Origin: Pseudomonadota bacterium
GTDB lineage: Bacteria > Pseudomonadota > Alphaproteobacteria > SHVZ01
Assembly: GCA_016195085.1 (NCBI GenBank)
Contig: JACQAG010000038.1
Location: 1-64,000, forward strand
Direction of reading: 5' to 3'
DNA: 64,000 nucleotides
Positions 2,928-52,355 of the stretch are shown here, one piece after another (the first letter of the stretch is position 1; the number at the start of each line of letters is the position of its first letter). A program made the position numbers and the translations under genes. A model generated the notes under the pieces. The model ran no database searches and had not been told where the DNA came from. It saw only the letters and a program-made list of their open reading frames with translations.

Positions 2928-4523
2928 TCAGCTCTTGGAGATATTCCAGAACACCAGCACCGCCCCGCGCAGCACGCCCTCGACGTTCTTGCGCCAAGCG
3001 AAGGGAGGTTCGAACTGGCCGAGGAGCGTATAGGGCTGCATCTCCATCAGGCGCTTGTGCAGGACCTCCATCGCCGCCTTGCGGCCGGCGTCGTCGGACG
3101 CGGCGACGAAGGCGGCGCGCAGCTTCTCCGTCTCCTCATCGCAAGGCCAGCCGACCCAGTTGCTCTGGTCGCAAGACATGTTGGAGCCGATATTGGTCAG
3201 GGGATGATGGAAGGTCGTGCCCGTCCCCCAGCTGGTGAACATGTTCCAGCCGCCCTGCGCCGGCGGGTCCTTCTTGGTCATGCGGGTGACGACGCTGCCC
3301 CAATCGTTCACCTGCATGTCGACGTCGACGCCCATCTCCTTCAGGCGCCCGGCCGCCACCAGCGCCATTTGGCCGATCTGCGGAATCTCGTTGGTGGTGA
3401 TCAGGAGGAGCTTCTCGCCCTTGTAGCCGGCCTCGGCCATCAGCTGCTTGGCCTTGGCCAGATCGGCATGCCGATAGGGCTCGGACCCGACCTCGGTCGC
3501 CCAGGGCGCGTCGCAGACGAAATAGGCGTAGCAGACCTTCCACCATTTCTGGTCCCCATAGGCCGTGCGCATGAAGTCGCGCTGGTCGAAGGCGACCGCG
3601 AGCGCTTGGCGCGCCTTCACGTTGTTGAACGGCGGATACAGGCTGTTGACCCGGAGAAAGCCGAAATTGCCGAAAGGCGGCAGGGTCTTCACCACGATGT
3701 CCGGATTCTTCTCCAAGGTGCCGAGCATGTCGTTCGAGGGCGAATCCCAGAGATCGACCTCGCCCTTGGCGAGGGCCGCTGCGACGGTGCCGGCATCGGG
3801 AATGACGTTGAACTCGACCCTGTCCACCTTCGCCACCTTGCCGCCGGCAAGCCCGTCGGGCGGCTCCGAGCGGGGCACGTAGTCGGTGTTCTTGTCGTAG
3901 ATCACCTTGTCGCCGGGGCGCCATTCCGCCCGGTTGAACTTGAACGGTCCAGAGCCGATCGCCTCGGTGATCGGCTGGAACGGATCGGTCATCGCTACCC
4001 GCTCGGGATAGATGGCCGGCATCTGTCCGCCGCCGGAGCCGAGCGTGAACTCGACGAAGCCATAGGGCTGCTTCATGGTGATGGTGAAGGTCTTGTCGTC
4101 CACCGCCTCCATCGAGGCGATGCTTTTGCCCAGACTTGCACCCATGACATCGCGCTTCATCCAGCGCGTGAGCGAGGCGATCGCGTCCTTGGTGGTGACC
4201 GGTTGGCCGTCATGCCACTTCTGTCCGGGCCTGAGCGTCAACGTGTATTTGAGCTTGTCCGGCGAGACCGTGTAGTCGCTCACCATCTGCGGCTTGGCCG
4301 CGAGCTTGAAGTCCCAAGAGAAGAGCGTGTCGTAGATGAGCAGCGCGTGCATCTTGGTGATCTGCACCGAGACCACATGGGTATCCAGCACCTTGACGTC
4401 GGCCTGCGGGACGACGCGCAGCACCTTCTGCTGCGCGTCGGCTTGCGAGGGGCCAAGCGCCAGCGCGCCGGCGACGGGAAGGGCGGCGCTCAGCCGCAAG
4501 AAGGTCTTCGATCGGTTCGCCAT
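2928..4523 (-). CDS. ABC transporter substrate-binding protein, family 5 (copy 2)
   Basis: A 531-residue SBP_bac_5 protein with a signal peptide (MANRSKTF start, cleavage near QADAQQK). It shares the layout of copies 1 and 3: an IYDTLFSWD segment, YTLTLRPGQKWHDGQ, VTTKDA, TRWMKRD, NTDYVPRSEPPDG, and the CYAYFVC cysteine pair. It looks the most diverged of the three. The ATG at 4523 is preceded by GAGGAGACGAGG. It is the first gene of the leftward operon and diverges from the first dimethylformamidase-like pair across a 285-bp gap, so the two transcription units may be co-regulated (inference). Confidence 0.92.
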   Translation of the reverse strand: MANRSKTFLRLSAALPVAGALALGPSQADAQQKVLRVVPQADVKVLDTHVVSVQITKMHALLIYDTLFSWDFKLAAKPQMVSDYTVSPDKLKYTLTLRPGQKWHDGQPVTTKDAIASLTRWMKRDVMGASLGKSIASMEAVDDKTFTITMKQPYGFVEFTLGSGGGQMPAIYPERVAMTDPFQPITEAIGSGPFKFNRAEWRPGDKVIYDKNTDYVPRSEPPDGLAGGKVAKVDRVEFNVIPDAGTVAAALAKGEVDLWDSPSNDMLGTLEKNPDIVVKTLPPFGNFGFLRVNSLYPPFNNVKARQALAVAFDQRDFMRTAYGDQKWWKVCYAYFVCDAPWATEVGSEPYRHADLAKAKQLMAEAGYKGEKLLLITTNEIPQIGQMALVAAGRLKEMGVDVDMQVNDWGSVVTRMTKKDPPAQGGWNMFTSWGTGTTFHHPLTNIGSNMSCDQSNWVGWPCDEETEKLRAAFVAASDDAGRKAAMEVLHKRLMEMQPYTLLGQFEPPFAWRKNVEGVLRGAVLVFWNISKS

Positions 4524-4808
4524 GATGTCCCTCGTCTCCTCTGTCATTGTCGACCGGGCGCGCGGGCAACCGCGCCTTCCGACCCAGCCCAATTCCGAGA
4601 ACCCGAACGCCGCTGTTCGATGGCGCGGGCTTCCCCGCGCTCCTTTGCATTTCCTATAGGGAGCATGGCAGAAAGCGTCGGGCTAGGGAAGCAGCCGGCG
4701 CTACCCTTGGCGGTTGTTTCGCATACGACAGGGCGGTAGTCTCGTAGGCATTGACGCCCGCCTTAGCTCCCCTCCCGCAACGTCCCCAGTCTTCCCATCG
4801 GCTGCAGC
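4524..4808. promoter_or_regulatory. Divergent promoter region, SBP operon / DMFase-like operon 1
   Basis: A 285-bp gap between two divergent operons. It includes a CCTATAGG palindrome around 4647-4660 that could be part of a promoter or operator. I could not fix -35/-10 boxes with confidence. It must contain the signals for at least one of the two operons. Confidence 0.35.
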
Positions 4809-5135
4809 ATGCGCGACCGCGACGGTAATCTCGCCCTCCGCCTCGATCCGACCCGGCTCGAGCTCGCTCGGGAATTCCGGAAGAAGCCGTTCGGCGGCCA
4901 CACCCCGGCGCTGCAGGAGCTCTTGAACCTCATGCGCTCCGCCCCGATCGAAGGAAAGCACTTCCTCTATATGACCAAGGCGCACCGGGAATGGACCTTG
5001 GCCCGCATGTCCGAGACCCTGCCCTTGCGCCCGATCCTCCTCGGTCCGGTCTTCACCCGCATCGAAGACGCGGAATGGCACGTCTTCAAGCTGCGCTGGC
5101 ACGCGATGACCGGCCAGGCGCTGGCGATCGACTGA
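4809..5135 (+). CDS. N,N-dimethylformamidase-like small subunit (copy 1)
   Basis: A 108-residue soluble protein strongly similar to the one at 13185-13487. Both share LDP(T/S)RLELAREF(R/K)KKPFG at the N-end and a C-terminal EWHVFK...LRW..(M/L)TGQ.L.ID block. Each precedes a ~745-residue protein of the dimethylformamidase large-subunit family. In characterised DMFases a short subunit (about 130 residues) pairs with a ~760-residue catalytic subunit. The match to the small subunit rests on size, position and the WxVFKLRW block from memory. Start choice is weak: no clear Shine-Dalgarno precedes 4809, and the copy-2 homologue begins about eight residues later in the alignment. Confidence 0.8.
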   Translation: MRDRDGNLALRLDPTRLELAREFRKKPFGGHTPALQELLNLMRSAPIEGKHFLYMTKAHREWTLARMSETLPLRPILLGPVFTRIEDAEWHVFKLRWHAMTGQALAID

Positions 5136-5139
5136 GACG

Positions 5140-7377
5140 ATGGCGGCCGTCCTTGGATATGCCGATCGTCAGAGCTTGCGCGCCGGCGAGGCCATCGCCT
5201 TCAAGGTCTGCTGCGATGGCGCCTCCACCTACCGCGCCGAGATCGTGCGCCTCATTGCGCCAGAGGTCTTGCCCGGCCCCGATGCGCCCGAGTTCCGCTT
5301 TGAGGCCATGGCGAGCCCGGCCGACGGCGAATACGAGGCACGCCATCAGGACACGCCGGTCGGCTCCTATGGGCTGATCCAAGCATCACCGAGCTTCGCC
5401 GCGATCGGCAGCTTCACGCTCGCGGCCTTTCTGTGGCCGACCACACCGGGCAAGGGCGAGCAGGCCGTTCTCGGCACCTGGTCGCGCGCGTCCGGCCGGG
5501 GCATCGGCCTCCATCTCGATGGCGACGGCGCGCCGATGCTGGTGCTGGGCGGCGGCGAGACGATCTCCTTGGGTGCCGCTCTGCCGGCGCGCCGCTGGTC
5601 CTTCATCGCCGCCACCTACCGAGCGCGCGACCGCACGGTCACCCTCTATCAGAGGCAGGTCGAGACCCACCACCTGGATGCTGCCGATCCCATGGGCCGC
5701 ACCGTCACGGCGGCGAGCAAGCCCTTGCATGGGACGGGCCCCCTGCTCATCGCCGCCGCCGCCGGCGGACATTGGCCGGATGGGCGCATGCGCACGGTCC
5801 GCCACTACAACGGCAAGATCGAGCGCCCGACCCTGCTCGAGGGGGCGCTCACCCTCACCCAGCTTGAAGCCCTTGCCAAAGCCGGACCGGCCCGGCCGGC
5901 GCAGAGGGCGGCGATCAGCGACTGGGATTTTTCGCGCGGCATCGACGGCGAACGCCTCGTCGACCGCGGCCGCCATCGCCGCCATGGCAAGACCGTCAAT
6001 CTTCCCACCCGTGCCGTCACCGGATCGAATTGGCAGGGAACCCGCCATGACTGGCAAGCCGCGCCGGAAGAATATGGCGCGATCCATTTCCACGACGACG
6101 ACCTCTACGACGCAGGATGGCAGACCTCGTTCCGCCTGAGCGTGCCCAAGACCTGGAAGAGCGGCGCCTACGCCGCGAGGCTGACGGCCGGAGCGTCGGA
6201 ATTCTGGGTGCCGTTCTTCTTGCGCCCGGCGCGCGGCGCCGCCAAGGCCAAGACGGCGTTCCTGGCACCCACCTGCACCTACGCCGCTTACGCGAATTTT
6301 CGCGCGCGCGTGAGCGGCCGTTGGAGCGAGCTCTACCACGGTCGGCTGACGGTGCTGGATTCGACCGACTGGCTGATGCAGGACTACCCGGAGATCGGCT
6401 CCTCTACCTACGACGTGCATTCCGACGGCAGCCTCGTCATCTATTCCTCGATGCTGCGCCCGGTCACCAACTTCCGTCCGACCGGCCGGATCTACAAGTT
6501 CAACCAGGATATGCTGATTTTGGCCTGGCTCGAACGTCAGGGCATCGCCTATGACGTGGTCGCCGACGACGATCTGCACCGCGAGGGTATCGCGGCCCTC
6601 GCCGACTACAGATGCATCATCACCGGATCCCACCCGGAGTACTACACGACGGCCATGCTGGATGGGCTGGAGGCATTCCTCGGCCAAGGCGGCAGGCTCA
6701 TCTATCTCGGCGGCAACGGCTTCTATTGGCGGACCGCCTATCACAATACGCTGCGCGGCGTGGTCGAGGTACGCCGGGCCGGACAAGGCTTCCTCGGCAA
6801 CAACACCGAAGCCGAGAGCCATATGAGCTTCACCGGCGAGGTCGCCGGCACCTGGACCCGGGTCGGCCGGCCGCCGCAGCTCATCGCCGGTGTGGGCTTC
6901 ATCACCCAAGGCTTCGATGCCTGCGAAGGCTACCGGCTGAAACGGGCGAGCCGCGACCCCAGAGCCGCTTTCGTCTTCGCCGGCGTCGAAGGCGAGATCG
7001 TCGGCGATTTCGGCATGCTGCAGAACGGCGCCGCCGGCTACGAAGTCGACCGTGCCGATGCCGCTCTCGGCACGCCCGTCCATGCGCTGGTGCTGGCATC
7101 CTCCGAGAACCATTCGAACGTCTACGAGATCTCGGTGCCGTCCTTCATGGATCTGGTGCCGAAGCGGGCAGAGACCGCACCCGATCCGATCCGCGCCGAT
7201 ATGGTGTTCTTCGAGATCCCAGGAGGGGGGGCGGTGTTTTCCACCGGCTCGATCGCCTGGTGCGGTAGCCTGTCCGCCCGCGGCTACGATAACAATGTCG
7301 AGCGGATCACCCGCAACGTGCTCATGCGCTTCGTCGATGCCAAACCGTTCATCATGCCGAAACCGCCAAGCCCATAG
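5140..7377 (+). CDS. N,N-dimethylformamidase-like large (catalytic) subunit (copy 1)
   Basis: A 745-residue protein starting 4 nt after the small-subunit stop codon. Residues ~85-215 look like a LamG/jelly-roll domain (SFTLAAFLWPTT...RRWSFIAATYRARDRTVTLYQ). The rest matches the dimethylformamidase beta-subunit C-terminal family. Known Paracoccus DMFase binds mononuclear iron through two Tyr and one Glu (Tyr399, Tyr440, Glu521, as I recall). Candidate equivalents here are Tyr384 in TYAAYAN, Tyr424 in STYDVHSDG and Glu500 in GSHPEY, with similar spacing (40 and 76 residues). Other conserved blocks are HFHDDDLYDA, GVGFITQGFDAC, SENHSNVYE and GGAVFSTGSIAW. The real substrate may be another amide. 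Confidence 0.87.
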   Translation: MAAVLGYADRQSLRAGEAIAFKVCCDGASTYRAEIVRLIAPEVLPGPDAPEFRFEAMASPADGEYEARHQDTPVGSYGLIQASPSFAAIGSFTLAAFLWPTTPGKGEQAVLGTWSRASGRGIGLHLDGDGAPMLVLGGGETISLGAALPARRWSFIAATYRARDRTVTLYQRQVETHHLDAADPMGRTVTAASKPLHGTGPLLIAAAAGGHWPDGRMRTVRHYNGKIERPTLLEGALTLTQLEALAKAGPARPAQRAAISDWDFSRGIDGERLVDRGRHRRHGKTVNLPTRAVTGSNWQGTRHDWQAAPEEYGAIHFHDDDLYDAGWQTSFRLSVPKTWKSGAYAARLTAGASEFWVPFFLRPARGAAKAKTAFLAPTCTYAAYANFRARVSGRWSELYHGRLTVLDSTDWLMQDYPEIGSSTYDVHSDGSLVIYSSMLRPVTNFRPTGRIYKFNQDMLILAWLERQGIAYDVVADDDLHREGIAALADYRCIITGSHPEYYTTAMLDGLEAFLGQGGRLIYLGGNGFYWRTAYHNTLRGVVEVRRAGQGFLGNNTEAESHMSFTGEVAGTWTRVGRPPQLIAGVGFITQGFDACEGYRLKRASRDPRAAFVFAGVEGEIVGDFGMLQNGAAGYEVDRADAALGTPVHALVLASSENHSNVYEISVPSFMDLVPKRAETAPDPIRADMVFFEIPGGGAVFSTGSIAWCGSLSARGYDNNVERITRNVLMRFVDAKPFIMPKPPSP

Positions 7378-7390
7378 AAGGAGAGGCACC

Positions 7391-7846
7391 ATGGCACCGA
7401 TCATCTTCGCCTTGCAGTACGCCGGCCCGGTCAAGCCGATCGCCAAGGTTCCCGGCGTCTTGCGCGTCAAGCTCACGGCATCGAGCTGCCGGATCGAGAC
7501 CGCGATCGGCCCGAAGGGCGTTGCCTCGTCGATCGCGAAGATCCCGGGCGGCAAGGCCGTGCTGGATTCGATCGTCACCGTGACCGGAGAGGCGACCTTC
7601 ATCGAGTCCGGCACGCTGACATTCGGCCGCGGCGGCACCACCCTCACCTTCTCTACCGTCGGCCAGGCGGCGATCGGGCCCAGCGCCGATCCGAAGCTGA
7701 CGAGCGGTGCGGCCATCTGGAAGGTGACCGGCGGCACCGGACAGTTCAAAGGGGCGACCGGCTACGTCATCGGCAACTTCTTCGCCACCGACAAGGGGGA
7801 GGCGACCGACACCCAGGTGGCGGTGATCTTCCCGGCCAAGAAGTAG
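7391..7846 (+). CDS. Conserved hypothetical protein, possible allene-oxide-cyclase-like barrel
   Basis: A 151-residue protein 13 nt downstream of the DMFase-like large subunit and so probably in the same operon; AAGGAGAGG precedes the ATG. It has no signal peptide. The sequence is rich in beta-strand residues, with a C-terminal GGTGQFKGATGYVIGNF block that recalls the GGTGxYxGAxG signature of allene-oxide-cyclase/dirigent-type beta barrels. No catalytic residues can be named. No counterpart follows the second pair at 15756. A role as accessory or ligand-binding protein in amide catabolism is conceivable but unproven. Confidence 0.75.
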   Translation: MAPIIFALQYAGPVKPIAKVPGVLRVKLTASSCRIETAIGPKGVASSIAKIPGGKAVLDSIVTVTGEATFIESGTLTFGRGGTTLTFSTVGQAAIGPSADPKLTSGAAIWKVTGGTGQFKGATGYVIGNFFATDKGEATDTQVAVIFPAKK

Positions 7847-8086
7847 GCCTCCCAGGCGCGGCAGTCTCGTGGGCTGGGTCGCTTGAGGTCGCGTCTGGAT
7901 TGAGGAAGGCTTCCAGATGATCGCCTACCAAGGCGATCGCTGGCTGTTGGGCGGCGCGCTCAAGGCTGGAATCGACGGCATGCGCGATGCCCGTCCGCGC
8001 CGTCGACGCATACAAGCTTGCGACAGGCAACGTTTAGTTGCAACAAGACCCTCGCAATGCGGCAATTTTCCGGGTAATTTACGCAA

Positions 8087-8323
8087 ATGTCGACCAGGGC
8101 CAATCGCCTGTTGCTGGCCGCCCTCGAGGAAGTCCTCGGGCCGGGCACCGATGCGGCGCGCTATCTGGAAAAGGCGATCGCCTCCAACGACACCCTCGAC
8201 CTCCTGCTGGCGCAGGCCTCCTTCGACGAGCTCACCGGCGAGGAGCGCCGGGAGATCGCCGAAGTCGTCGACCGGCTGGTCGGCCAAGAGCTGGTCAACA
8301 CCCGCAACCGCCAGATCGCCTGA
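8087..8323 (+). CDS. Hypothetical small protein
   Basis: A 78-residue, mostly helical acidic protein (alternating Leu/Glu, e.g. ARYLEKAIAS and ELTGEERREIAEVVDRLVGQELV) without signal peptide or cysteine. I do not recognise the family. The composition is protein-like and the opposite-strand reading looks like a shadow. No good ribosome site is visible upstream of the ATG. The preceding ~240 bp (7847-8086) shows no gene. Confidence 0.5.
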   Translation: MSTRANRLLLAALEEVLGPGTDAARYLEKAIASNDTLDLLLAQASFDELTGEERREIAEVVDRLVGQELVNTRNRQIA

Positions 8324-8431
8324 CCCCGCCCTCCTCCTCCGGCCTCGTGTCGTATAAGAAAAATGTTAGCATCGCGGCCGGTCCCGTGGTCATCTCTTCG
8401 TCCGCAACCAAGCAGCCATAGAGGGAGCGCC

Positions 8432-10027
8432 ATGAAGCTGAATCCAACCGCCGTCACCGGGCTCGCATCGATGTCGCTGGCGCTCGGGCTTGCGAGCGCT
8501 CCGGCCCTTTCAGAGACCCCGAAGAATACGCTGGTGGTGGTGCCGCACGCCGATCTGCGCATCCTCGATCCGCTGCAGGCGGCGGCGACGATCACCATCA
8601 TGCACGCCTCCAACATCTATGACGAGCTGTTCGCCTGGGACAAGGAACTGCAGCCGAAGCCGCAGATGGTGGGCGACTACCAGGTCTCGGCCGACAAGCT
8701 CACCTACACCATGAGCTTGCGCCCCGGCCTCAAATTCCACGACGGCACGGCGGTCACCACCAAGGACGTGGTCGCCTCGGTCGATCGCTGGATGAAGCGC
8801 GATGGCGTCGGCAAGAAGCTGGCGGAGGTCACGGCCTCGTTCACAGCCACCGACGACAAGACCTTCGTCTTCAAGCTGAAGCAGCCCTATTCCTGGGTCG
8901 AATACTCGCTCGGCAACCACGCCGGCAACTATCCCGCGATCATGCGCGAGAAAGAGGCGAAGACCGACCCGATGACGGCGGTGACCGAGACCATCGGCTC
9001 CGGCCCGTACAAATTTTCCAAGGAAGAATGGAAGCCCGGCGCCGAGGTCGTCTACACCAAGAACACCGACTACGTGCCGCGCTCCGATCCGCCCGATGCG
9101 ATGGCCGGCGCCAAGCTGGTCAAGGTCGACAAGATGATCTGGAAGATCATCCCCGACGCGCAGACCTCGGCCTCGGCGCTGATCGCCGGCGAAGTCGACC
9201 TGATCGATTCCGTCAACGCCGACGTCGTACCGCTCCTGGAGAAGAACAAGGACGTGGTGGTCTCGAAGATTCCGCCGGTCGGCGGCTTCGGCGCGATCCG
9301 GCCGAACGCGCTCAACCCGCCCTTCAACAATGCGAAGGCGCGCCAGGCGCTGTGGATCCTGACCGACCAGGAAGACTACATGCGCGCTTCCTTCGGCGAG
9401 CAGAAGTGGTGGAACAAGTGCTTCTCCTACTTCGTCTGCGGCTCGATCTACGGCACCACGGCCGGCTCGGAAGGCTTCCAGAAGGCCGACCCGGCCAGGG
9501 CGAAGAAGATGTTCGAGGAGGCCGGCTACAAGGGCGAGAAGATCATCATCACCTCGACCAAGGAGATTCAGAATATCGGGACCCAGGCCGAGGTGCTGGC
9601 CGGCGCCTTGCGCAACATCGGCGCCAATGTCGACATCGAATGGGCGGATTGGGGCACCACCTTGACCCGCTTCCTCACCAACAAGAACCCGGTCGGCCAG
9701 AGTGGCGGCTGGAGCATTTTCACCACCACCAACTCCTGGTCGACCTGGCACAATCCCCTGACCAATGTCGGCGTCATCCTGACGCCGGAGGGGAGCTGGG
9801 CCGGCTGGCCGAGCGACGAGCTGGGCGAGAAGCTCCGAACCGAGTTCATCCAGGCCCAAGACAAGGCGTCCCGCATGGCAGCGCTCGACAAGCTGTCCAA
9901 GCGCATGTGGGAAGTGGCCCCCTATGTGGTGACCGGACAGTTCGATGGACCTTATGCCTGGCGGAAGAACGTCGTGGGCGTGCTGCCGACCTCGAAGCTG
10001 GCGCTCTGGAACATCGGCAAGGAATAG
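8432..10027 (+). CDS. ABC transporter substrate-binding protein, family 5 (copy 3)
   Basis: A 531-residue periplasmic binding protein with a signal peptide (start MKLNPTAVTG, cleavage near APALSETPK). It is clearly closest to copy 1: both share VPHADL..LDPL.AAATITIMH and SWVEYSLGNHAGN.PAIMREKEA. The C-x5-C pair falls at Cys330/Cys336. The ATG at 8432 follows GAGGGAG. A possible extended -10 (TGTTAGCAT, about 8365-8373) lies 60 bp upstream; the same 9-mer occurs near 13086 before the second DMFase-like pair. No importer membrane genes adjoin it. Confidence 0.92.
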   Translation: MKLNPTAVTGLASMSLALGLASAPALSETPKNTLVVVPHADLRILDPLQAAATITIMHASNIYDELFAWDKELQPKPQMVGDYQVSADKLTYTMSLRPGLKFHDGTAVTTKDVVASVDRWMKRDGVGKKLAEVTASFTATDDKTFVFKLKQPYSWVEYSLGNHAGNYPAIMREKEAKTDPMTAVTETIGSGPYKFSKEEWKPGAEVVYTKNTDYVPRSDPPDAMAGAKLVKVDKMIWKIIPDAQTSASALIAGEVDLIDSVNADVVPLLEKNKDVVVSKIPPVGGFGAIRPNALNPPFNNAKARQALWILTDQEDYMRASFGEQKWWNKCFSYFVCGSIYGTTAGSEGFQKADPARAKKMFEEAGYKGEKIIITSTKEIQNIGTQAEVLAGALRNIGANVDIEWADWGTTLTRFLTNKNPVGQSGGWSIFTTTNSWSTWHNPLTNVGVILTPEGSWAGWPSDELGEKLRTEFIQAQDKASRMAALDKLSKRMWEVAPYVVTGQFDGPYAWRKNVVGVLPTSKLALWNIGKE

Positions 10028-10066
10028 TCCGCGGAGCCTTTTGACTACGCTACCGGCCAAAATACG

Positions 10067-10164
10067 ACCCTCACCCCGCCCCTCTCCCGCGATGCGGGAC
10101 AGGGAGTAAGACTCTTGCCGCGATTGCCCCCTCTCCCGCACCGCGGGAGAGGGATGGGGTGAGG
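10067..10164. repeat. Dispersed palindrome, ACCCTCACC family (long form)
   Basis: The outer arms ACCCTCACCCC and GGGGTGAGG hold two inner hairpins, CTCTCCCGC/GCGGGACAG (imperfect) and CCCTCTCCCGC/GCGGGAGAGGG. It separates the binding-protein gene from the aminotransferase gene on the same strand. Confidence 0.8.
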
Positions 10165-10206
10165 ATCTTCTCGTGGCGATCATTCAACCGTCGAGGAAGC
10201 CCACCC

Positions 10207-11514
10207 ATGCCGCACTACGCGAAATCGGTCGCGCTCCATGAGCGGGCGCGCAAGGTCATGGCCGGCGGCGTCAGCAGCGGCTTTCGCGCCCAGGGCAAGC
10301 CGGTGCCGCTCTTCTTCGAGCGCGGCCAGGGCGCGGTTCTGACCGATGTCGACGGCAACACCTATATCGACTACGTGCTGGGCCTGGGGCCGGCGATCCT
10401 GGGCCACGCGCCCAAGCGGGTGCTGGAGCGGGTGGCATCCACCTTGGCCGAGGGGCAGGTCTACGCCGCCCAGAACTTGCATGAGCTGAAGCTCGCCGAG
10501 CGACTGACCAAGCTCATCCCGGCGGCCGAGATGGTGCGCTTTGCCTCCTCGGGCACCGAGGCGGTGCAGGCGGCCTTGCGGCTGGCGCGCGCCTATACCG
10601 GTCGAGCCAAGATCGTGAAGTTCGAGGGCCACTATCACGGCTGGCTCGACAACATCGCCATCAGCGTCAAGCCGGCCTTGAACGCCGCCGGCCCGGCGAG
10701 CCAGCCGGTCCCGGTGCCCGAAAGCGCCGGCCAGCCGGAGAGTGCCTTCGCCGAGGTGATCGTGCTGCCCTGGAACGACCTCGCCATGGTCAAGAAGACC
10801 ATGGAGGAGCGCTGCGGCGAGATCGCCGGCGTCATCATGGAGCCGATCCTCTGCAACACCTCGGTCGTCACCCCGCGCGCGGGCTATCTCGAAGGCGTGC
10901 GCGCGCTGACCCAGCGCCATGGCAGCCTGCTCATCTTCGATGAGGTGATCACCGGCTTCCGGGTGGGCTTGGGCGGCGCCCAGAAGCGCCTCGGCATCAC
11001 CCCCGACCTCGCCACCTTCGCCAAGGCGGTCGCCGCCGGCTTCCCCTTGAGCTGCCTCGTCGGACGAGCGGAGATCATGGAGCGGCTCTTTACCCATGGC
11101 GTGCTCCATGGCGGCACCTACAACGCCAATGTCGTCAGCACCAGCGCCGCGCTCGCGGCTCTAGATGAACTCGAGGCCGATGACGGTGCCGTCTACGCCG
11201 CCATGGAGAAGAAAGGTGCCCGCCTGATGGAGGGCTTGAAGCAGCTCGCACGCAAGCACGGGCTGCCGCTCCTGGTGCAGGGCCTGGGCGCAGTCTTCAA
11301 CACGGCCTTCACCGATCAGCCCGCCATCAGCGACTACCGCAGCGCCGCGCGCGCCGACGCCGCGCTGCTGACCCGCTTCGTCGACCTCCTGCAGGAGGAG
11401 GGCGTCAGGATCACCACGCGCGGCACCTGGTTCCTTTCGACCGCCCACACCGACCAGCAGATCGAGGCGAGCATCGCCGCCACCGACAAGGCGCTGGCCA
11501 AGCTGAAGCCGTAG
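10207..11514 (+). CDS. Class III aminotransferase, glutamate-1-semialdehyde aminomutase group
   Basis: A 435-residue PLP enzyme. It has the fold-type I layout of HemL-like proteins: VAGG-type start (MAGGVSSGFRAQG), SSGTEAVQAALRLARA, the GHYHGW motif, FDEVITGFR with the PLP-pyridine Asp, and the Schiff-base Lys in TFAKAVAAGFPL. Many such aminomutase-like proteins in catabolic clusters act on other omega-amino or beta-amino substrates rather than in tetrapyrrole synthesis, and its setting among amide and peptide genes favours that (inference). The ATG at 10207 follows GAGGAAG. It may be expressed with binding-protein copy 3. Confidence 0.85.
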   Translation: MPHYAKSVALHERARKVMAGGVSSGFRAQGKPVPLFFERGQGAVLTDVDGNTYIDYVLGLGPAILGHAPKRVLERVASTLAEGQVYAAQNLHELKLAERLTKLIPAAEMVRFASSGTEAVQAALRLARAYTGRAKIVKFEGHYHGWLDNIAISVKPALNAAGPASQPVPVPESAGQPESAFAEVIVLPWNDLAMVKKTMEERCGEIAGVIMEPILCNTSVVTPRAGYLEGVRALTQRHGSLLIFDEVITGFRVGLGGAQKRLGITPDLATFAKAVAAGFPLSCLVGRAEIMERLFTHGVLHGGTYNANVVSTSAALAALDELEADDGAVYAAMEKKGARLMEGLKQLARKHGLPLLVQGLGAVFNTAFTDQPAISDYRSAARADAALLTRFVDLLQEEGVRITTRGTWFLSTAHTDQQIEASIAATDKALAKLKP

Positions 11515-11545
11515 GGCCGTCGCCTTCTAACGACGCCGGCGATGA

Positions 11546-11992
11546 TCACATCGGCTCGCCGCCGATCAGGGGATTGACCACCGAGAGCTCGGCGAAACGG
11601 CCCAAGTCGCGGTCCGCCGACCACAGTTCGCGCACGCCGTGCTGCCGGCATAGCGCGGCGACGCGAGCGTCATGGACCTGCGCGCCGGCAACACGGCCAT
11701 CTACGATGAGCGCGCGCAACGTCGGCCAGTGCTCCGCTGACTCGGCCAAGAGCGCCAGCGTCGGCGACTCAAGCCAAGCATCCACCTGGTCTAGCGCTCG
11801 GGCCAACGGAGTGGGCGGCGCATATATGCGCGGATGCGTAACGATCGCCAGAAATTCATGCAGACATGGCCAGGGAATGGCCCAAGTCGCAGGCCCTTCT
11901 GCAAGTTCCGCGACGAGCCGGCTGGCGGCTTGGTAAAATGGCGAGTCCTCGCGATGCGCGTAGACGAGAATGTTGGTGTCGACGGCGATCAA
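11546..11992 (-). CDS. PIN-domain toxin, VapC type
   Basis: A 148-residue PIN-domain ribonuclease, presumably the toxin of a type II toxin-antitoxin pair. The acidic residues of the family are all visible: Asp5 in MIAVDTN, Glu in CLHEF, Asp in VHDARVAALC and Asp in SADRDLGRF. The start codon is TTG and overlaps the antitoxin stop in the 4-nt TTGA (11989-11992), indicating translational coupling. The target RNA cannot be told from sequence. Confidence 0.88.
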   Translation of the reverse strand: MIAVDTNILVYAHREDSPFYQAASRLVAELAEGPATWAIPWPCLHEFLAIVTHPRIYAPPTPLARALDQVDAWLESPTLALLAESAEHWPTLRALIVDGRVAGAQVHDARVAALCRQHGVRELWSADRDLGRFAELSVVNPLIGGEPM

Positions 11993-12243
11993 GCGCCGCG
12001 ACCCTCATAGGCTAGGTCGCGTAGCCGTTCCCACGTTGCCTCGCGGAGATCCGGTCGCAGCCCCTTACCCTTGAAGCTTGCGCGCCGCAGCTTGAACGGC
12101 ACGCCATGCTTTGTCTCGGCCATGACGCGATGAAGCCCGCGCTCCACCAGCGTCCGCAGAGTGACGCCTTCGCGTGCCGCGAGCTTGCGGACTTCGCGCA
12201 GCAACGAATCGGAAATCTCAACTGTCGTCTTCACCCTGCCCAT
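11989..12243 (-). CDS. VapB-type ribbon-helix-helix antitoxin
   Basis: An 84-residue protein with an N-terminal ribbon-helix-helix DNA-binding segment (VKTTVEISDSLLREVRKLAAREGVTLRTLVERGL) and a C-terminal tail that would neutralise the PIN toxin. I place the start at 12243 (MGRVKTTVEI) with CATAAGG just upstream. A second in-frame ATG at 12273 lies inside the palindromic operator and would add ten unlikely residues. It is first in the operon and overlaps the toxin by 4 nt, as usual for autoregulated pairs. Confidence 0.85.
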   Translation of the reverse strand: MGRVKTTVEISDSLLREVRKLAAREGVTLRTLVERGLHRVMAETKHGVPFKLRRASFKGKGLRPDLREATWERLRDLAYEGRGA

Positions 12244-12257
12244 CCTTATGGGAACAT

Positions 12258-12277
12258 GAATATGGGTACCCATATTC
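12258..12277. promoter_or_regulatory. Palindromic operator of the VapBC pair
   Basis: A perfect 20-bp palindrome, GAATATGGGTACCCATATTC, lies 14 bp upstream of the antitoxin start. Ribbon-helix-helix antitoxins bind such sites with their toxin to repress their own promoter. The symmetry is directly visible; the role is inferred from position. Confidence 0.7.
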
Positions 12278-12322
12278 TAGGGTCAGGACCATCTTGAGAC
12301 AAGCCCGCCATGCGCCGATGCC

Positions 12323-13051
12323 CTAGCTCGCGTAGTCCGGCTCTTCGCGGTCGAGGGTGCGCTTGATCGCGACGAGATAGGTGTCGGCGTATTCCGGCCA
12401 GGTCTGCACCTCCTTGACCACGCTTTCCGCGATCTTCGGCTGGATCGGCTTCATCGGCCGGTTGGCGGACATGGCGATGAGCTGCACCTTGCAGGCTTCC
12501 TCGAGGAAGTAGAGGTTGCCGAAGGCTTGGGCGATGCTGGGGCCGGACACCATCGGTCCGTGATTGCGCATCATCACGATGTCCTTGTCGCCGAGGATAT
12601 TGCCGACGCGCACGCCCTCCTCCGGCTCCATCGCCAAGCCGAGATAGTTCTCGTCATAGGCGATGCGATCCCAGAAGACGACAGCGGTCTGGTTGGTGGG
12701 CTCGAGGCGACCGCCATCGAGGAGGCAGAGCGCGGTCGCATAGGGCATGTGCGTGTGCAGGAGTGCACGCGCCTTCGGGTTCATGCGATGGATCGGCGCA
12801 TGCAGGCAATAGGCAGTGCGCTCGAGCTTGCCTTCGCCCTCGATCACCTTGCCGTCGAGATCGCACAAGAGGAGGCTGCTGGCGGTGATCTCCGACCAGA
12901 AGAGACCTTCGGGATTGACGAGGAAGCGATCATCACTGCCCGGCACCATCAGGCTGTAGTGGTTGCAGGTGCCGGTCTGGTAGCCGAGCCGCGCCGACCA
13001 GCGGAACACCGCCGCGAAATCGACTCGCGCCTGCCAAAGGTCGTTTCTCAT
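12323..13051 (-). CDS. Class II aldolase/adducin family protein
   Basis: A 242-residue zinc-dependent aldolase/epimerase-type protein. The zinc-site HTH is seen in LLHTHMPYATAL, with a third His in RNHGPMVSG and the GTCNHYSLMVPG N-terminal block. Family members include fuculose-phosphate aldolase, ribulose-5-phosphate epimerase and decarboxylases, and the substrate cannot be set from sequence. The start follows GGAGCGCGAG. It diverges from the second DMFase-like operon across 133 bp, so its promoter shares that gap. Confidence 0.85.
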   Translation of the reverse strand: MRNDLWQARVDFAAVFRWSARLGYQTGTCNHYSLMVPGSDDRFLVNPEGLFWSEITASSLLLCDLDGKVIEGEGKLERTAYCLHAPIHRMNPKARALLHTHMPYATALCLLDGGRLEPTNQTAVVFWDRIAYDENYLGLAMEPEEGVRVGNILGDKDIVMMRNHGPMVSGPSIAQAFGNLYFLEEACKVQLIAMSANRPMKPIQPKIAESVVKEVQTWPEYADTYLVAIKRTLDREEPDYAS

Positions 13052-13184
13052 GGACTCTCGCGCTCCTGGATTTGTCTGGGATGAATGTTAGCATGGGGCT
13101 CTGCCGTCGAGCCGCGCCGGTTCCTAGGGTTGACCCGCCCGGAGATTGCCGTAAGCTCTCCCTTTCTTATCCGAAAAACCGGCC

Positions 13185-13487
13185 ATGTATCAAATCGACC
13201 CCTCCCGGCTGGAGCTGGCGCGCGAGTTCAAGAAGAAGCCCTTCGGCGAGCACAGTCCGGACCTGCAATATCTCTTGCACCGCATGCGCAGCTACGATGC
13301 GAGCGGGCACCACGTCCTGGTGATGACCCGGCCGCACGCGCAATGGACCCTGGCCCGCATGCAAGCGGGCGGCCGCCAGGCCCCCACTCTCACCAACACC
13401 ACCTTCACCAGCCTGGAAGAGGCCGAATGGCATGTCTTCAAGCTCCGGTGGAAGGATCTGACCGGCCAGGACCTGCCGATCGACTGA
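13185..13487 (+). CDS. N,N-dimethylformamidase-like small subunit (copy 2)
   Basis: A 100-residue protein homologous to the product of 4809-5135 along its whole length (DPSRLELAREFKKKPFGEHSPDL, MTRPHAQWTLARM, EEAEWHVFKLRW, LTGQDLPID). It lies 22 nt upstream of its large-subunit partner. The shorter N-terminus suggests the core domain begins at the IDPSRLE segment in both copies. No obvious ribosome site lies before the ATG. A TGTTAGCAT extended -10-like sequence stands near 13086-13094. Confidence 0.8.
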   Translation: MYQIDPSRLELAREFKKKPFGEHSPDLQYLLHRMRSYDASGHHVLVMTRPHAQWTLARMQAGGRQAPTLTNTTFTSLEEAEWHVFKLRWKDLTGQDLPID

Positions 13488-13509
13488 CGCCTCCAGGACC
13501 ACTCCATTC

Positions 13510-15756
13510 ATGACCCGATTGCTGGGATACGCCGACAAGAACGCGCGGGCGCCGGGCGAACCGCTCGCCGTCATGGTGAGCTGTGTGGGTGCGGAGCGCT
13601 ACCAGGCCGATCTCGTGCGCCTGCTGAGCCCCAACGCCGGGCCGACCGCCCCGCCCTTTCGCGAGGCGGTGGTGCCGAGCCCGATCAACGGCGAGCATCG
13701 CGGACGCCGGCAAGACATGCATGGCGGCTCCTGGGCCGTCATCAGGGCGCATCGGCGCTTGGCCGCGATCCGAAGCTTCACGATCCAGGCGATGGTTTGG
13801 CCGACCACCCCCGAGAAAGGACCGCAGGCGATCCTCGGCACCTGGTCGGAGACGGCCCAATCCGGCTATGGGCTCGGCCTGGACGAGACCGGCCAGCTCG
13901 AGCTGACGCTCGGCGACGGCACCGGCACATTCCGGCTCAAATCCGGACAGAAGCTCTTCAGGCGGAAATGGTACTTGGTGGCGGCCAGCTTCGAAGCCGA
14001 GACCGGCGAGGCCGTCCTCTATCAGGAACCGCTCGCCGACAAGGGCTTCGCTCCGGGCGCGCCGATCCGCGTTGCCGCCAAGAGCAAGATCCGGCCCAGC
14101 ACCGGCGCGGGCTCGTTCCTCTTCGCCGCCTGGCTGAAAGGCGAAGCCGACGCACCCACATCATGGGAAAAGATGCTGGTCGGCGGGCATTTCAACGGCA
14201 AGATCGATCGGCCGCGGCTCGCAAGCATTGCCCTTGATCGGGCCGGTATCGTCGCCCTTGCCGGCAATGTCATCCCCGCCGGACTTGGCGAGGCGGTGGT
14301 GGCCCTGTGGGATTTCTCCCGCGACATTCATGGGATCGCCATCCACGACATCTCGGCCAATCGCCTCTCCGGCGAGACCGTCAATCTGCCGGCCCGCGCC
14401 ATGACCGGCTTCAACTGGGACGGCTCGGAGATGAACTGGCGGAATGCGCCGGAGCAATACGGCGCTATCCACTTCCACGACGACGATTTGTACGATGCGC
14501 GCTGGCAGCCGGACTTCACCCTCGACCTTCCCCAGGATCTCAAAAGCGGCGTCTACGCCATCCGCTTGACCCAGGATGAGGCCTATTTCCATATCCCGTT
14601 CTTCGTCACGTCCAAACGGGATCATGCCAAGGCCAAGATCGCTTACCTCGCCTCGACCGCCACATACACGGTCTATGCCAACAACCGCGGCCGCTTCAGC
14701 GCGCCCTTGACCGAGCTCTATCAGGGCCGGCTCACCGTCTTCGATGAAGTCGACATGCTGCAATACGAATTCCCCGATATGGGGCTCTCGACCTATGACC
14801 GGCATTCCGACGGCAGCGGCGTCTGCTATTCATCGCGGCTCCGGCCGATCACCAACATCAAGCCGGGCGGGCGGATGTGGAATTTCGGCTGCGATCTCTT
14901 CCTCGTCGATTGGCTGGAGCGAACCGGGCTCGGCTACGACGTCATCACCGACGATGATTTGCATCGCGAAGGCATCGATCTCTTGAAGCCCTATGCGGTC
15001 GTGGTGACCGGCAGCCACCCGGAATACGACTCCCTCGAGATGCTGGAGGCCCTCGACGGGTATCTGAGGCAGGGCGGCCGTTTCATGTATATGGGCGGCA
15101 ACGGCTTCTATTGGCGCATCGCCTATCATCCGAGCTTGCCTGGCGTCATCGAGGTCCGGCGCAGCGAGGACGGGACGCGCGCATGGGATGCCGAGGTGGG
15201 CGAGTACTATCACAGCTTCACCGGCGAATATGGCGGGCTGTGGCGCCGCCAGCTACGGGCGCCGAACCTCTTGGCCGGCGTCGGCTTCATCAGCCAAGGC
15301 TTCGATGCCTGCTCCTACTACCGGCTGACCGAAGCGGCAACGGATTCCAGGGTTTCCTTCGCCTTCGCCGGCGTCGAAGGTCCGATCGTGGGCAATCACG
15401 GCGTGCTGCAAGGCGGGGCGGCGGGATTGGAGATCGACTCCTACGACCCGCTTCTTGGTTCGCCGCCGCATGCCTTGGTGGTGGCGCGCTCGGAGAACCA
15501 CTCCAACACCTATGAGCTGGTGAACGAGGAGGTCCGCGTTGCCCACGGCATGACCGACGGCATCATCAGCCCGCTCATTCATGCCGACATGGTTTTCTTC
15601 GAGACCCCGAACGGAGGTGCGGTGTTCTCCACCGGCTCGATCGCCTTTGCCGGCAGCCTCGGCACCAACGGCTTCAAGAACGACGTCGCGATCCTGTCGA
15701 CGAATGTGCTGAAGCGCTTCATCGACCCGACACCATTCAAGATGCCGACGCTCTAG
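13510..15756 (+). CDS. N,N-dimethylformamidase-like large (catalytic) subunit (copy 2)
   Basis: A 748-residue homologue of the protein at 5140-7377, alignable end to end. It has the LamG-like N-terminal part (SFTIQAMVWPTTPEKG, RRKWYLVAASFEAETGEAVLYQ) and the catalytic C-terminal part. Candidate iron ligands are Tyr389 (TYTVYANN), Tyr429 (STYDRHSDG) and Glu505 (GSHPEY), with the same 40- and 76-residue spacing as copy 1. Divergence between copies is spread over the whole length, which argues against a recent duplication. It may have a different amide specificity. The downstream M81 peptidase gene is separated by a palindromic repeat. Confidence 0.87.
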   Translation: MTRLLGYADKNARAPGEPLAVMVSCVGAERYQADLVRLLSPNAGPTAPPFREAVVPSPINGEHRGRRQDMHGGSWAVIRAHRRLAAIRSFTIQAMVWPTTPEKGPQAILGTWSETAQSGYGLGLDETGQLELTLGDGTGTFRLKSGQKLFRRKWYLVAASFEAETGEAVLYQEPLADKGFAPGAPIRVAAKSKIRPSTGAGSFLFAAWLKGEADAPTSWEKMLVGGHFNGKIDRPRLASIALDRAGIVALAGNVIPAGLGEAVVALWDFSRDIHGIAIHDISANRLSGETVNLPARAMTGFNWDGSEMNWRNAPEQYGAIHFHDDDLYDARWQPDFTLDLPQDLKSGVYAIRLTQDEAYFHIPFFVTSKRDHAKAKIAYLASTATYTVYANNRGRFSAPLTELYQGRLTVFDEVDMLQYEFPDMGLSTYDRHSDGSGVCYSSRLRPITNIKPGGRMWNFGCDLFLVDWLERTGLGYDVITDDDLHREGIDLLKPYAVVVTGSHPEYDSLEMLEALDGYLRQGGRFMYMGGNGFYWRIAYHPSLPGVIEVRRSEDGTRAWDAEVGEYYHSFTGEYGGLWRRQLRAPNLLAGVGFISQGFDACSYYRLTEAATDSRVSFAFAGVEGPIVGNHGVLQGGAAGLEIDSYDPLLGSPPHALVVARSENHSNTYELVNEEVRVAHGMTDGIISPLIHADMVFFETPNGGAVFSTGSIAFAGSLGTNGFKNDVAILSTNVLKRFIDPTPFKMPTL

Positions 15757-15922: not shown

Positions 15923-17374
15923 ATGAAAGCCTTCATCGCCGGCATGGCGCATGAGACCAATAGCTTCTCGCCGCTGCCGACGAGTCGTCGCAGCTTCGAG
16001 GAGCTGCTGGTGCGCCCGAAGACCGGCGAGGACAAGGACCGTCTCGCCGATACCTGGGGTTATGGGCGCTTCATCAAATTGGCGACCGAGCATCAAATCG
16101 CCGTGGCGTCCAGCCTGTTTTGCGCGACACAGCCGAGCGCGCCCACGATCAAGGCCGACTACGAGAGCTTGCGCGACGAGATCCTGGCCGATCTTGAGGC
16201 CGCCATGCCGGTCGACATGGTGCTCTTGATGCTGCACGGCGCCCAGACCGCAGAGGGCTATGACGATTGCGAAGGCGATATTCTGGAGCGCATGCGCCGG
16301 ATCGTCGGGCCGGACGTGCCGATCGGCGCCGAGCTCGATCTCCATGCCAATGTCACGAGCAAGATGCTGGCCAACGCCACCGTCCTCATGGCCTGCAAAG
16401 AATATCCCCATATCGATTTCGTCGAGCGCGCCGACGATCTGTTTTCGCTGATCCGGCGGGCGCGGCTGGGCGAGATCAAGCCGGTCATGGCCAAGTTCGA
16501 CGTGCCGATGCTGGGAAGCTTTCCCACCACCCGCGAGCCGATGCGGAGCTTCGTCGATGAGACCCACGGGATGGAGGGCAAGGATGGCATCTTGTCGGTC
16601 TCGCTGGTGCACGGCTTCGCCTGGGCGGATTTTCCGGAGATGGGCGCCAGCGTCGTGGTGGTGACCGACGGCGACAAGGCCAAGGCCGGCAAGATCGCCG
16701 GCGCGCTCGGCCGGCGCTTCTTCAAGATGCGCAAGGAGATCGACAGTCCGCTCGTCTCCCTGGAGACCGCGCTCGACCGCGCGGTGGCGGCGCCGGCGGG
16801 GCCGATCGTGCTCGCCGATCGCTCGGACAATCCCGGCGGTGGCGCCCCGGGGGATTCGACCTACATGCTGCAGGCCATGCTCGATCGCGGCATCGCCGAT
16901 GCGGCGTTGGCCATGATCTGGGACCCGGTCGCGGTCAAGATCGCGTTTGACGCCGGCGTCGGCGCCACCTTGGCGATGCGCATCGGCGGCAAGCTTGGCC
17001 CGTTCTCCGGACTGCCTGTCGACCTTGAGGCGACGGTGACGCAGGTCAGGCGCGATGGCAAGCAATGGGCCTTGGGCGGCTATGCGCCCCTGGGAGATGC
17101 CGCTTCCATTCGCGCTTCGGGCATCGACATCGTGCTAAACTCCATCCGCCAGCAGACCTTCAGCGAGCATTGCTTCACCGAGCTCGGCATCGATCCCAAA
17201 GAGAAGAAGATCCTCGTGGTGAAATCCACCCAGCACTTCCATGCGCGCTTCGCCCCGATCGCCAAGGAGATCATCTACGTCAGCGCGCCGGGAACGCTGT
17301 CGACCAACTATCTGCAATTCCCGTTCAAACGCATGCGCCGGCCGATGGCGCCGCTCGACCCGGTAGAACTCTAG
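15923..17374 (+). CDS. M81 family metallopeptidase, MlrC-like
   Basis: A 483-residue protein of the MlrC/M81 family (DUF1485 N-terminal and MlrC C-terminal parts), named after a microcystin-degradation protein of sphingomonads. Recognisable blocks are the start MKAFIAGMAHETNSFSP, MLHGAQTAEGYDDCEGD, ELDLHANVT and ADRSDNPGGGAPGDST. The natural substrates of most members are unknown. The context of amide hydrolases, a peptide-type binding protein and an iminopeptidase fits breakdown of peptide-like compounds (inference). The GNAT gene follows after 7 nt and is likely co-transcribed. Confidence 0.87.
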   Translation: MKAFIAGMAHETNSFSPLPTSRRSFEELLVRPKTGEDKDRLADTWGYGRFIKLATEHQIAVASSLFCATQPSAPTIKADYESLRDEILADLEAAMPVDMVLLMLHGAQTAEGYDDCEGDILERMRRIVGPDVPIGAELDLHANVTSKMLANATVLMACKEYPHIDFVERADDLFSLIRRARLGEIKPVMAKFDVPMLGSFPTTREPMRSFVDETHGMEGKDGILSVSLVHGFAWADFPEMGASVVVVTDGDKAKAGKIAGALGRRFFKMRKEIDSPLVSLETALDRAVAAPAGPIVLADRSDNPGGGAPGDSTYMLQAMLDRGIADAALAMIWDPVAVKIAFDAGVGATLAMRIGGKLGPFSGLPVDLEATVTQVRRDGKQWALGGYAPLGDAASIRASGIDIVLNSIRQQTFSEHCFTELGIDPKEKKILVVKSTQHFHARFAPIAKEIIYVSAPGTLSTNYLQFPFKRMRRPMAPLDPVEL

Positions 17375-22029: not shown

Positions 22030-23364
22030 TCAATTCAGCGTCTTCAGCACGCTGGTGATGGTGCCGAAGATCTCGTCGATGTGCTTCTTCTCGACGATGA
22101 GCGGCGGCGACAAGGCCATGATGTCGCCGGTGGTGCGGGTCAAGACACCCTTCTCGTAGCATCTGAGGAAGGCATCGAAGGCACGCTGGCTGGGCTTGCC
22201 GGCCCTGGGCTCCAGCTCGATGCCGGCGATGATGCCGAGATTGCGCAGATCAATGACCGGGCCGACGCCCTTCAGGGAATGCACCGCATCCTCCCAGTAG
22301 CCGAGGAGGCCGTTGGCGCGCTCGAACAAGCCTTCGTCGCGGTAGATGTCGAGGGTGGCGAGAGCCGCCGCAGAGGCGACGGGGTGGCCCGAATAGGTAT
22401 AGCCGTGGAACAGCTCGACGGAGTTGTCCGGCGCGTTCATGAACGCATCGTAGATGCCCTTGCGGGCAAACACCGCCCCCATGGGGATGGTGCCGTTGGT
22501 CAGCCCCTTGGCGGTGGTGATCAGGTCCGGCTTCACCTTGAAATACTCGGTGGCGAAGCTCTGGCCCAGCCGCCCGAAGCCGGTGATCACCTCGTCGAAG
22601 ATGAGGAGGATGCCGTGCTTGTCGCAGATGGCGCGGAGCTTCTCCAGATAGCCCTTGGGCGGCACCAGCACGCCGGTCGAGCAGGCTACCGGCTCGACGA
22701 TGACAGCGGCGATGGTGGAGGCATCGTGGAGGGCGACGATGCGCTCGAGCTCGTCCGCCAAATGCGCGCCCCATGCCGGCTGGCCGCGGGAGTAGGCGTT
22801 CTTCTCGAGATTGTGCGTGTGCGGCAGATGATCGACGCCGGGCAGCAACGGGCCGAAGGTACGGCGATTGACGCCGATGCCGCCCACCGAGATGCCGCCG
22901 AAGCCCACGCCGTGATAGCCGCGCTCGCGGCCGATCAGCCTGACCCGCGTGCCCTGGCCGACGGCGCGATGGTAGGCGATGGCGATCTTGAGCGCGGTGT
23001 CGACCGACTCGGAGCCGGAATTGGTGAAGAACACATGGTCGAAGCCCGGCAGCATGTGCGTGAGCCGCGCCGCCAGCTCGAAGGTCAAGGGATGGCCCAT
23101 CTGGAAGGCGGGCGCATAGTCCATGGTCTCGACCTGCTTCGCCACCGCCTCGATGATCGGCTTGCGGCGGTGGCCGGCATTGACGCACCACAGGCCCGCG
23201 GTGCCGTCGATGATCCGCCGCCCGTCGCCGGTGGTGTAGTGCATGCCCTCGGCGGCGACCAGCATGCGCGGGTTCGCCTTGAATTGCCGATTGGCCGTGA
23301 ACGGCATCCAATGCGGCTCGAGGTCATTGGGCATCTTGATGTCGGCGGAGGTGACGGCGGCCAT
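22030..23364 (-). CDS. Class III omega-aminotransferase, beta-alanine:pyruvate type
   Basis: A 444-residue PLP-dependent aminotransferase. The opening DLEPHWMPFTANRQFKANPR is typical of beta-alanine--pyruvate (omega-amino acid) transaminases. NSGSESVDTALKIA, RGYHGVGFGG, FDEVITGFGR and the Schiff-base lysine in TTAKGLTNG are all visible. The reaction would convert beta-alanine to malonate semialdehyde. That is the last step after the pyrimidine genes at 49723-59295 and the ureidopropionase at 44045, although they are not adjacent. The ATG at 23364 follows AAGGAG. Confidence 0.85.
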   Translation of the reverse strand: MAAVTSADIKMPNDLEPHWMPFTANRQFKANPRMLVAAEGMHYTTGDGRRIIDGTAGLWCVNAGHRRKPIIEAVAKQVETMDYAPAFQMGHPLTFELAARLTHMLPGFDHVFFTNSGSESVDTALKIAIAYHRAVGQGTRVRLIGRERGYHGVGFGGISVGGIGVNRRTFGPLLPGVDHLPHTHNLEKNAYSRGQPAWGAHLADELERIVALHDASTIAAVIVEPVACSTGVLVPPKGYLEKLRAICDKHGILLIFDEVITGFGRLGQSFATEYFKVKPDLITTAKGLTNGTIPMGAVFARKGIYDAFMNAPDNSVELFHGYTYSGHPVASAAALATLDIYRDEGLFERANGLLGYWEDAVHSLKGVGPVIDLRNLGIIAGIELEPRAGKPSQRAFDAFLRCYEKGVLTRTTGDIMALSPPLIVEKKHIDEIFGTITSVLKTLN

Positions 23365-23533
23365 GGGAACTCCTTCGATACAGGCGGCGATCATGCCGCG
23401 TAAGTCTCGTTGCCCGCAGCATAGCAGCCGCCCTTCCATTGCGGAACGCTCCCCTTCGACGCTACCTTGTGCACGGAACGGGATGGGCCGGCGGTCGGTC
23501 GGCACCCGGCATTGGCGAAGGAGCTAAAGGCGC

Positions 23534-49579: not shown

Positions 49580-49626
49580 GCAGTCAGGTCTCGCGGTCTG
49601 CGACGCAAAATCTCTCGCGTCCGATC

Positions 49627-51072: not shown

Positions 51073-51084
51073 AGGAGAACGCAC

Positions 51085-52353: not shown

Positions 52354-52355
52354 AA

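Follow-up and report, generated by a model that had tools for sequence, protein, structure and literature searches.

What does a bacterium gain from two enzymes that both resemble dimethylformamidase (DMFase) and are encoded within 11 kb of each other, and do their genes belong to one pathway? The question arises from positions 1 to 64,000 of contig JACQAG010000038.1 (assembly GCA_016195085.1, Alphaproteobacteria, lineage SHVZ01), the 64,000-nucleotide stretch that we call the window. On the plus strand, the first gene pair encodes a DmfA1-like small subunit of 108 residues (sm1, 4809-5135) and a large subunit of 745 residues with DMFA2_C and LamG domains (lg1, 5140-7377). The second pair, on the same strand and of the same composition, encodes proteins of 100 residues (sm2, 13185-13487) and 748 residues (lg2, 13510-15756). 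We read them as two Fe amidohydrolases, probably of different specificity, that act on N-acyl amines or N-acyl amino acids larger than dimethylformamide (DMF), and we place the probability of this reading at roughly 0.55. In both cases the small gene lies just upstream of the large one, with gaps of 4 bp in pair 1 and 22 bp in pair 2 by the coordinates of the open reading frames (ORFs), and all four subunit frames are open. Identity between the large subunits is 50% over 753 columns, and between the small subunits 58% over 98 columns. The original prediction, made from the DNA letters, had described two small/large pairs in one order and on one strand, diverged along their whole length, and these ORFs and identities agree with it.

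The family assignment of the large subunits is straightforward. In Pfam both have an N-terminal Laminin_G_3 domain and a C-terminal DMFA2_C domain (PF20254), the latter with 303 bits (E 4.8e-90) in lg1 and 305 bits (E 1.5e-90) in lg2 at a curated cut-off of 27. Compared with solved structures, lg1 scored 443 bits with N-acetyl-(R)-beta-phenylalanine acylase (8huy) and 433 bits with the Paracoccus DMFase (6lvb), while lg2 scored 492 bits with the DMFase and 476 bits with the acylase. An AlphaFold2 model was made for lg1 from a 33-sequence alignment, with a predicted local distance difference test score (pLDDT) of 89.9; the fold of lg2 was judged by sequence only. The lg1 model matched 6lvb_A with template modelling (TM) scores of 0.91/0.89, and so is predicted to have the DMFase fold over its full length. 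Among the 50 structure matches listed, the only full-length ones were DMFase (TM by query 0.90-0.92) and the acylase (0.84-0.85); the further matches covered the model in part, and many were pentraxin or LG domains. The original prediction would have failed had the large proteins fallen in a non-amidase family, which is not so, with DMFA2_C well over its cut-off.

The small subunits were more elusive. Neither sm1 nor sm2 matched anything in Pfam or NCBIfam, and single-sequence searches gave weak hits to the DMFase small subunit 6lvb_B (E 0.53 for sm1, 0.054 for sm2). A profile of 50 small subunits found 6lvb_B at E 1.6e-9, with the next best match at 0.047, and on this profile match we take the small subunits of the window to be homologs of DmfA1. 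Membership of both pairs in the DMFase family stands through PF20254 for the large subunits and through this profile for the small ones. The large subunit of DMFase is described as inactive alone by Arya et al. 2020 (PMC7686228), on whose work we draw here and below. In L048, L075, L091, L098, L099 and L107 (L numbers denote loci with family members), one ORF of ~840-880 aa spans the small and large subunits, and these appear to be natural fusions of DMFase-type subunits.

The active site is preserved. The large-subunit alignment comprised 111 rows, 109 from loci and 2 from PDB entries, prepared after leaving out 10 identical copies and those 5 of the 124 ORFs that were shorter than 650 aa; L069 and L071, among the 80 contig loci, had no large ORF extracted and lie outside the tree. 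In DMFase, Y399, Y440 and E521 are the Fe ligands and H519 and N547 the catalytic His and Asn, and the Y440A, E521A and H519A mutants are each inactive (PMC7686228). The three ligands are kept in 111 of 111 rows and H519 and N547 in 110 of 111, and lg1 and lg2 carry all five (DMFase numbering). L016 is the sole row with Gln at the position of the catalytic His. A dead copy was ruled out, as both large genes are open and keep every ligand residue. The pairs are likewise not near-identical duplicates and neither looks inactive by sequence; the second finding that would have counted against the original prediction did not arise.

Homology, the predicted fold of lg1 and the ligand residues suggest that each pair forms a two-subunit amidohydrolase built like the Paracoccus DMFase. 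With domain names and chemistry as given in PMC7686228, the large subunit would combine Ig-like, pentraxin/LamG-like and ThuA/glutamine-amidotransferase-like catalytic domains. One Fe(III) held by two Tyr and one Glu, aided by His and Asn, would activate the amide carbonyl for attack by water. The small subunit would prop the large one and line the path to the active site, a role suggested by the same source.

We placed the large subunits in a quick tree of all 111 rows and in a careful mixture-model tree of 47 of those rows, from which the support values derive. lg1 falls within a clade of 9 rows (support 100/100) and lg2 within one of 16 rows (97/96), so that each pair sits in its own clade. 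The same lg1 and lg2 groupings occur in both trees. Both belong to a larger clade of 27 rows (100/99) that excludes DMFase and the acylase. Identity to the own clade is 59-64% for lg1 and 57-65% for lg2, and the small subunits found in both clades track their large partners, those of lg1-type loci matching sm1 best and those of lg2-type loci matching sm2 best. Seven genomes of the taxonomic family were compared, six of them from a sister genus, and a search across the order gave the same seven; DMFA2_C matches occur in 7 of 7, with 3 to 7 in each, some being pieces at contig ends. Because the pairs are 50% identical and sit in their own supported clades with sister-genus orthologs, we regard them, on the strength of these comparisons, as old paralogs. 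A recent duplication was ruled out by the same identity and the old separate clades.

The catalytic domains of these paralogs differ at many positions, with 25 positions past residue 380 separating the lg1 clade from the lg2 clade, and distinct specificities of the two pairs are likely. Both pairs could instead catalyse one reaction on identical or overlapping substrates, with two copies retained for dosage or regulation, an explanation that fits their shared 27-row clade, common subunit make-up and common active-site ligands. We consider it unlikely in view of the 50% identity, of separate ortholog clades that exist side by side in sister genomes among different neighbours, and of the 25 clade-separating positions in the catalytic region.

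Is DMF itself the substrate of either enzyme? The window pairs share with Paracoccus DmfA1/DmfA2 (6lvb; plasmid pAMI2) the small-large gene order, the fold, the Fe-ligand residues and the catalytic His and Asn. They differ from them in clade and in neighbours, and no LuxR gene stands in front of them, unlike on pAMI2. The true DMFases occupy a long separate branch and 8huy another, with L008 and L009, and neither lg1 nor lg2 groups with characterised DMFases or with 8huy. A further difference concerns F693 of DMFase, which comes from the neighbouring subunit and narrows the pocket, and which was offered as the cause of poor use of larger amides (PMC7686228). Phe occupies the aligned position in 18 of 111 rows, with D in lg1 and V in lg2; the loop is variable and the alignment there unsure. 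A DMF route depends on a means of using dimethylamine. No match to the DmmA type (PF11927) was found in the 96%-complete genome, other dimethylamine enzymes not having been searched. Given the tree placement and the lack of a DmmA-type gene, DMF is an unlikely substrate of the window pairs, in keeping with the earlier view that ordinary DMF is not required. That at least one pair is a genuine dimethylformamidase or N-methylformamidase feeding methylamine metabolism is very improbable, although the best solved relative of lg2 is the DMFase and the genome holds a gamma-glutamylmethylamide synthetase-type gene over cut-off (contig G000:C80, 654 bits); the long separate branch of the true DMFases, the lack of an aligned F693, the missing DmmA-type match and the absence of a LuxR gene all count against it.

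The acylase resembles the window enzymes in fold and metal-ligand residues and scores similarly for lg1; it differs in its long separate branch, and its activity is known here from PDB names. Its nearest relatives, L008 and L009, showed no small-subunit gene (L009 also by gene call in a longer stretch), whereas each window pair has one, and there was no small-subunit chain among the 8huy, 8i59 and 8i5a matches. The window pairs also belong to the same family as the unnamed two-gene DMFA2_C loci L034-L113, which come from many Proteobacteria and some other phyla, carry no function in their record titles and have widely varying neighbours. The DMFA2_C family, in which at least 520 relatives are counted, is spread over many bacteria and is found on an archaeal plasmid as well. 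The window pairs are new members of this known, barely characterised family. Identical copies of certain sister-genus large subunits occur in named contigs of metagenome-assembled genomes, including 'Baikal-deep-G52' and 'K_Offshore_80m', titled Alphaproteobacteria.

Evidence on the kind of substrate comes from gene neighbourhoods across the family. Genes were called in 105 loci and 100 were counted, the window included, after 5 close-relative loci had been dropped; a run was defined as successive co-directed genes less than 120 bp apart. Runs of at least three genes include the large gene in 70 of 100 loci, the third gene being another large gene in a few. We scanned 146 of the 188 neighbours in such runs, the rest being mostly from close relatives. 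The commonest families among the 146 genes were BPD_transp_1 (16), ABC_tran (14), BPD_transp_2 (8) and AAA_21 (8), followed by class-III aminotransferases, short-chain dehydrogenases and SBP_bac_1 with 6 each. Importers are of the branched-chain type in L054, L060, L082, L098 and L108 (binding protein tested in L082), of the SBP_bac_8 type in L112, of the SBP_bac_1 type in L041, L044 and L104, and of the dipeptide type in L119, with a DppB-like permease in L018. Class-III aminotransferases were observed 11 times in 66 loci compared with 2.4 expected, and 8 times compared with 2.2 in 59 loci once seven hand-picked plasmid loci were removed (P ~0.002). Variovorax L119 holds, in one run, an aminotransferase, a family-5 solute-binding protein, the small and large subunits, a short-chain dehydrogenase, permeases and ATPases, and its aminotransferase is close to aminopentol aminotransferase (598 bits).

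These neighbourhoods fit the import of an N-acyl amine or amino acid, hydrolysis of its amide and transamination of the product, and do not thereby name the substrate. Together with the residue changes, they suggest that the most likely substrates would be amines or amino acids that carry an N-acyl group such as N-acetyl or N-formyl, exceed DMF in size and enter through ABC importers, and that the released amine would be transaminated or oxidised. A narrower form of this explanation holds that the pairs release (R)-beta- or D-amino acids from N-acylated precursors or unusual peptides for use by an aminotransferase or D-amino-acid dehydrogenase. One of the two solved relatives is named N-acetyl-(R)-beta-phenylalanine acylase, and annotated D-amino-acid dehydrogenase genes lie near L115 and L118. 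A cluster of DmpA/BapA-type S58 peptidases occurs in 4 loci (L044, L110, L111 and L112; Pfam and PDB tested in L112 only), and in L112 the peptidase, an aminotransferase and the pair share one run. However, none of those genes is beside the window pairs, and the window aminotransferase scores highest with GSAM (321 bits) and much lower with beta-transaminases (164 bits), so that this route is somewhat unlikely here.

Several observations weigh against our reading of the pairs as amidohydrolases of larger N-acyl compounds. The aminotransferase expectation was one genome's hemL-profile matches, which may undercount class III and so be too low, and these aminotransferases occur at only 10 of 66 loci, leaving 56 without one of that cluster. 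The binding proteins, aminotransferase, aldolase and MlrC-like gene of the window are not beside the orthologs in the sister-genus stretches, some of which are ~4 kb long. F693, the one experimentally known pocket marker, falls within a variable loop for which the pLDDT of the lg1 model drops below 50 (residues 669-678), and its alignment is therefore unsure. The lg1 clade has replaced E568 and R572 (DMFase numbering), kept by most of the family, and the window copy has also replaced W574; these losses could mean altered chemistry in the lg1 clade. Finally, a phosphoglucose isomerase gene, called by Pfam in L035 and by cluster elsewhere, lies next to the pair at 10 loci from two clades that stand apart: six loci of the lg2 type (L034-L038 and L042, downstream) and L072, L076, L081 and L084 (upstream). 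For this the amine reading has no account. In L076 a phosphoglucomutase precedes the isomerase in the same run. The proteins might then have kept the fold without being amidases, or might act on a sugar-linked substrate, a proposal to which the residues lost near 568-572 and the ten isomerase loci lend something. We find it improbable, since all ligand and catalytic residues and the small subunit are kept and the genes scanned next to the window pairs include no phosphoglucose isomerase.

The second part of our question, whether the two pairs and their neighbours form one system, was approached through the gene order of the window and its sister-genus counterparts. On the minus strand ahead of pair 1 lie an alpha/beta hydrolase (Abhydrolase_1, 176-1153), a family-5 solute-binding protein, A (SBP_bac_5, 1285-2892), and a second one, B (2928-4547), which is transcribed divergently from pair 1 and is 52% identical to A and to C. 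Directly behind lg1 on the plus strand is a gene-called hypothetical protein of ~152 aa with no Pfam match (7391-7846), followed by binding protein C (SBP_bac_5, 8432-10027), which is 60% identical to A and whose link to the pairs is not conserved, and by a GSAM-like class-III aminotransferase (Aminotran_3, 10207-11514), a candidate amine-using partner. Between the pairs on the minus strand are a PIN-domain protein and a small partner ORF with no Pfam match, likely a toxin-antitoxin system (11546-12273), and a class-II aldolase/adducin-type protein (Aldolase_II, 12323-13051; PRK06486 305 bits, cut-off 269). An M81 (MlrC-like) metallopeptidase with DUF1485 and MlrC_C domains follows pair 2 on the plus strand (15923-17374). 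There is no permease among the genes scanned between 176 and 17374, and the three binding proteins may be orphan receptors that share importers.

The six sister-genus genomes place the lg1 and lg2 orthologs found on separate contigs, although these assemblies are fragmented, and three lg2 orthologs with ~9 kb on both sides (L035, L036 and L037) have no lg1 gene within that distance. Behind the lg1 ortholog a short-chain dehydrogenase gene is present in 6 of 7 loci (two genes in 5, and a 4-bp overlap in L074) and absent in L017; the calls rest on Pfam for L074 and on sequence cluster for the others. The window lg1 has no adjoining dehydrogenase of this kind, and its genome's closest matches to the first such protein are 33-43% identical. 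All six lg2 orthologs (L034-L038 and L042) are followed directly by the phosphoglucose isomerase gene, and five of them are preceded by a peptidase S13 gene, the sixth being near a contig end; here L035 was called by Pfam and the others by cluster.

Sister-genus relatives of binding protein C at 80% and 76% identity (L157 and L158) have no DMFA2_C gene in 16-kb stretches, and neither does the sister cluster L160, where a 69% relative of the alpha/beta hydrolase stands beside two related binding proteins in 16 kb. Five of the six sister genomes encode relatives of the window aminotransferase at 50-52% identity (one partial); only one of these shares a contig with a DMFA2_C match, at a distance of ~11 kb. 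Neighbourhoods with several copies are not unique to the window, as L053, L068, L080, L094, L095 and L113 each hold 2-3 large DMFA2_C genes close together, several with one small-subunit gene found.

The abundance of the neighbouring families in the 4.8-Mb genome also bears on this point. Of 99 SBP_bac_5 matches, 98 exceed the curated cut-off, and some may be pieces of a single gene; M81/MlrC-type proteins have 18 matches over cut-off. Because both are so abundant, we dropped their adjacency as strong evidence and treat it as weak. Since the sister-genus orthologs differ in context and these families are so common, the genes around the pairs in the window do not make up a conserved module; that the two pairs lie so close together is a local arrangement and not a conserved operon. 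The linked, dedicated amide-degradation system put forward in the original prediction was therefore not upheld. Some M81 matches do lie beside SBP_bac_5 matches by coordinates elsewhere in the genome (G000:C39, ~179-182 kb; C49, ~0.5-2.8 kb).

Other assignments for the neighbours were considered. The window M81 protein scores 384 bits with a cut-off of 999 bits for MlrC, so it is not microcystinase itself, and a microcystin (mlr) cluster was ruled out. The aminotransferase was ruled out both as HemL (GSAM), at 394 of the 527 bits of the hemL cut-off, and as a beta-phenylalanine aminotransferase on the scores given above. Further along the window, 48869-59295 encodes reductive pyrimidine breakdown, with PreT-like and PreA dihydropyrimidine dehydrogenase subunits, dihydropyrimidinase and ABC importer genes, together with a RutR-like regulator (below cut-off) and an amidase of the carbamoylase/allantoate amidohydrolase family. 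An omega-aminotransferase, AptA (22030-23394, minus strand; 752 bits, equivalog cut-off 500), could use the beta-alanine of the pyrimidine pathway. A third, shorter DMFA2_C protein of ~531 aa by gene call is found elsewhere in the genome (G000:C18, ~34.6-35.8 kb; L003 and L004), where it adjoins an Abhydrolase_10 gene, and the short DMFA2_C proteins of two sister genomes (L024 and L033) are followed by a family-5 binding-protein gene.

Going beyond the preferred reading, it is possible, and we suggest it tentatively, that the two clades, lg1 and lg2, each represent a new functional class of 2-Tyr-1-Glu Fe amidohydrolase, specific for a different natural N-acyl amine or N-acyl beta- or D-amino acid, in a lineage specialised in scavenging dissolved amides and unusual peptides (~98 family-5 binding-protein matches, 18 M81 and 3 DMFase-like proteins). 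Solved structures came to light for only two family members, an enzyme that acts on a man-made solvent and another whose name refers to an N-acetyl beta-amino acid. The two paralogs look intact, are well separated and have orthologs, and so offer clean targets for asking which substrates the family evolved for and how specificity depends on the small subunit and the pocket.

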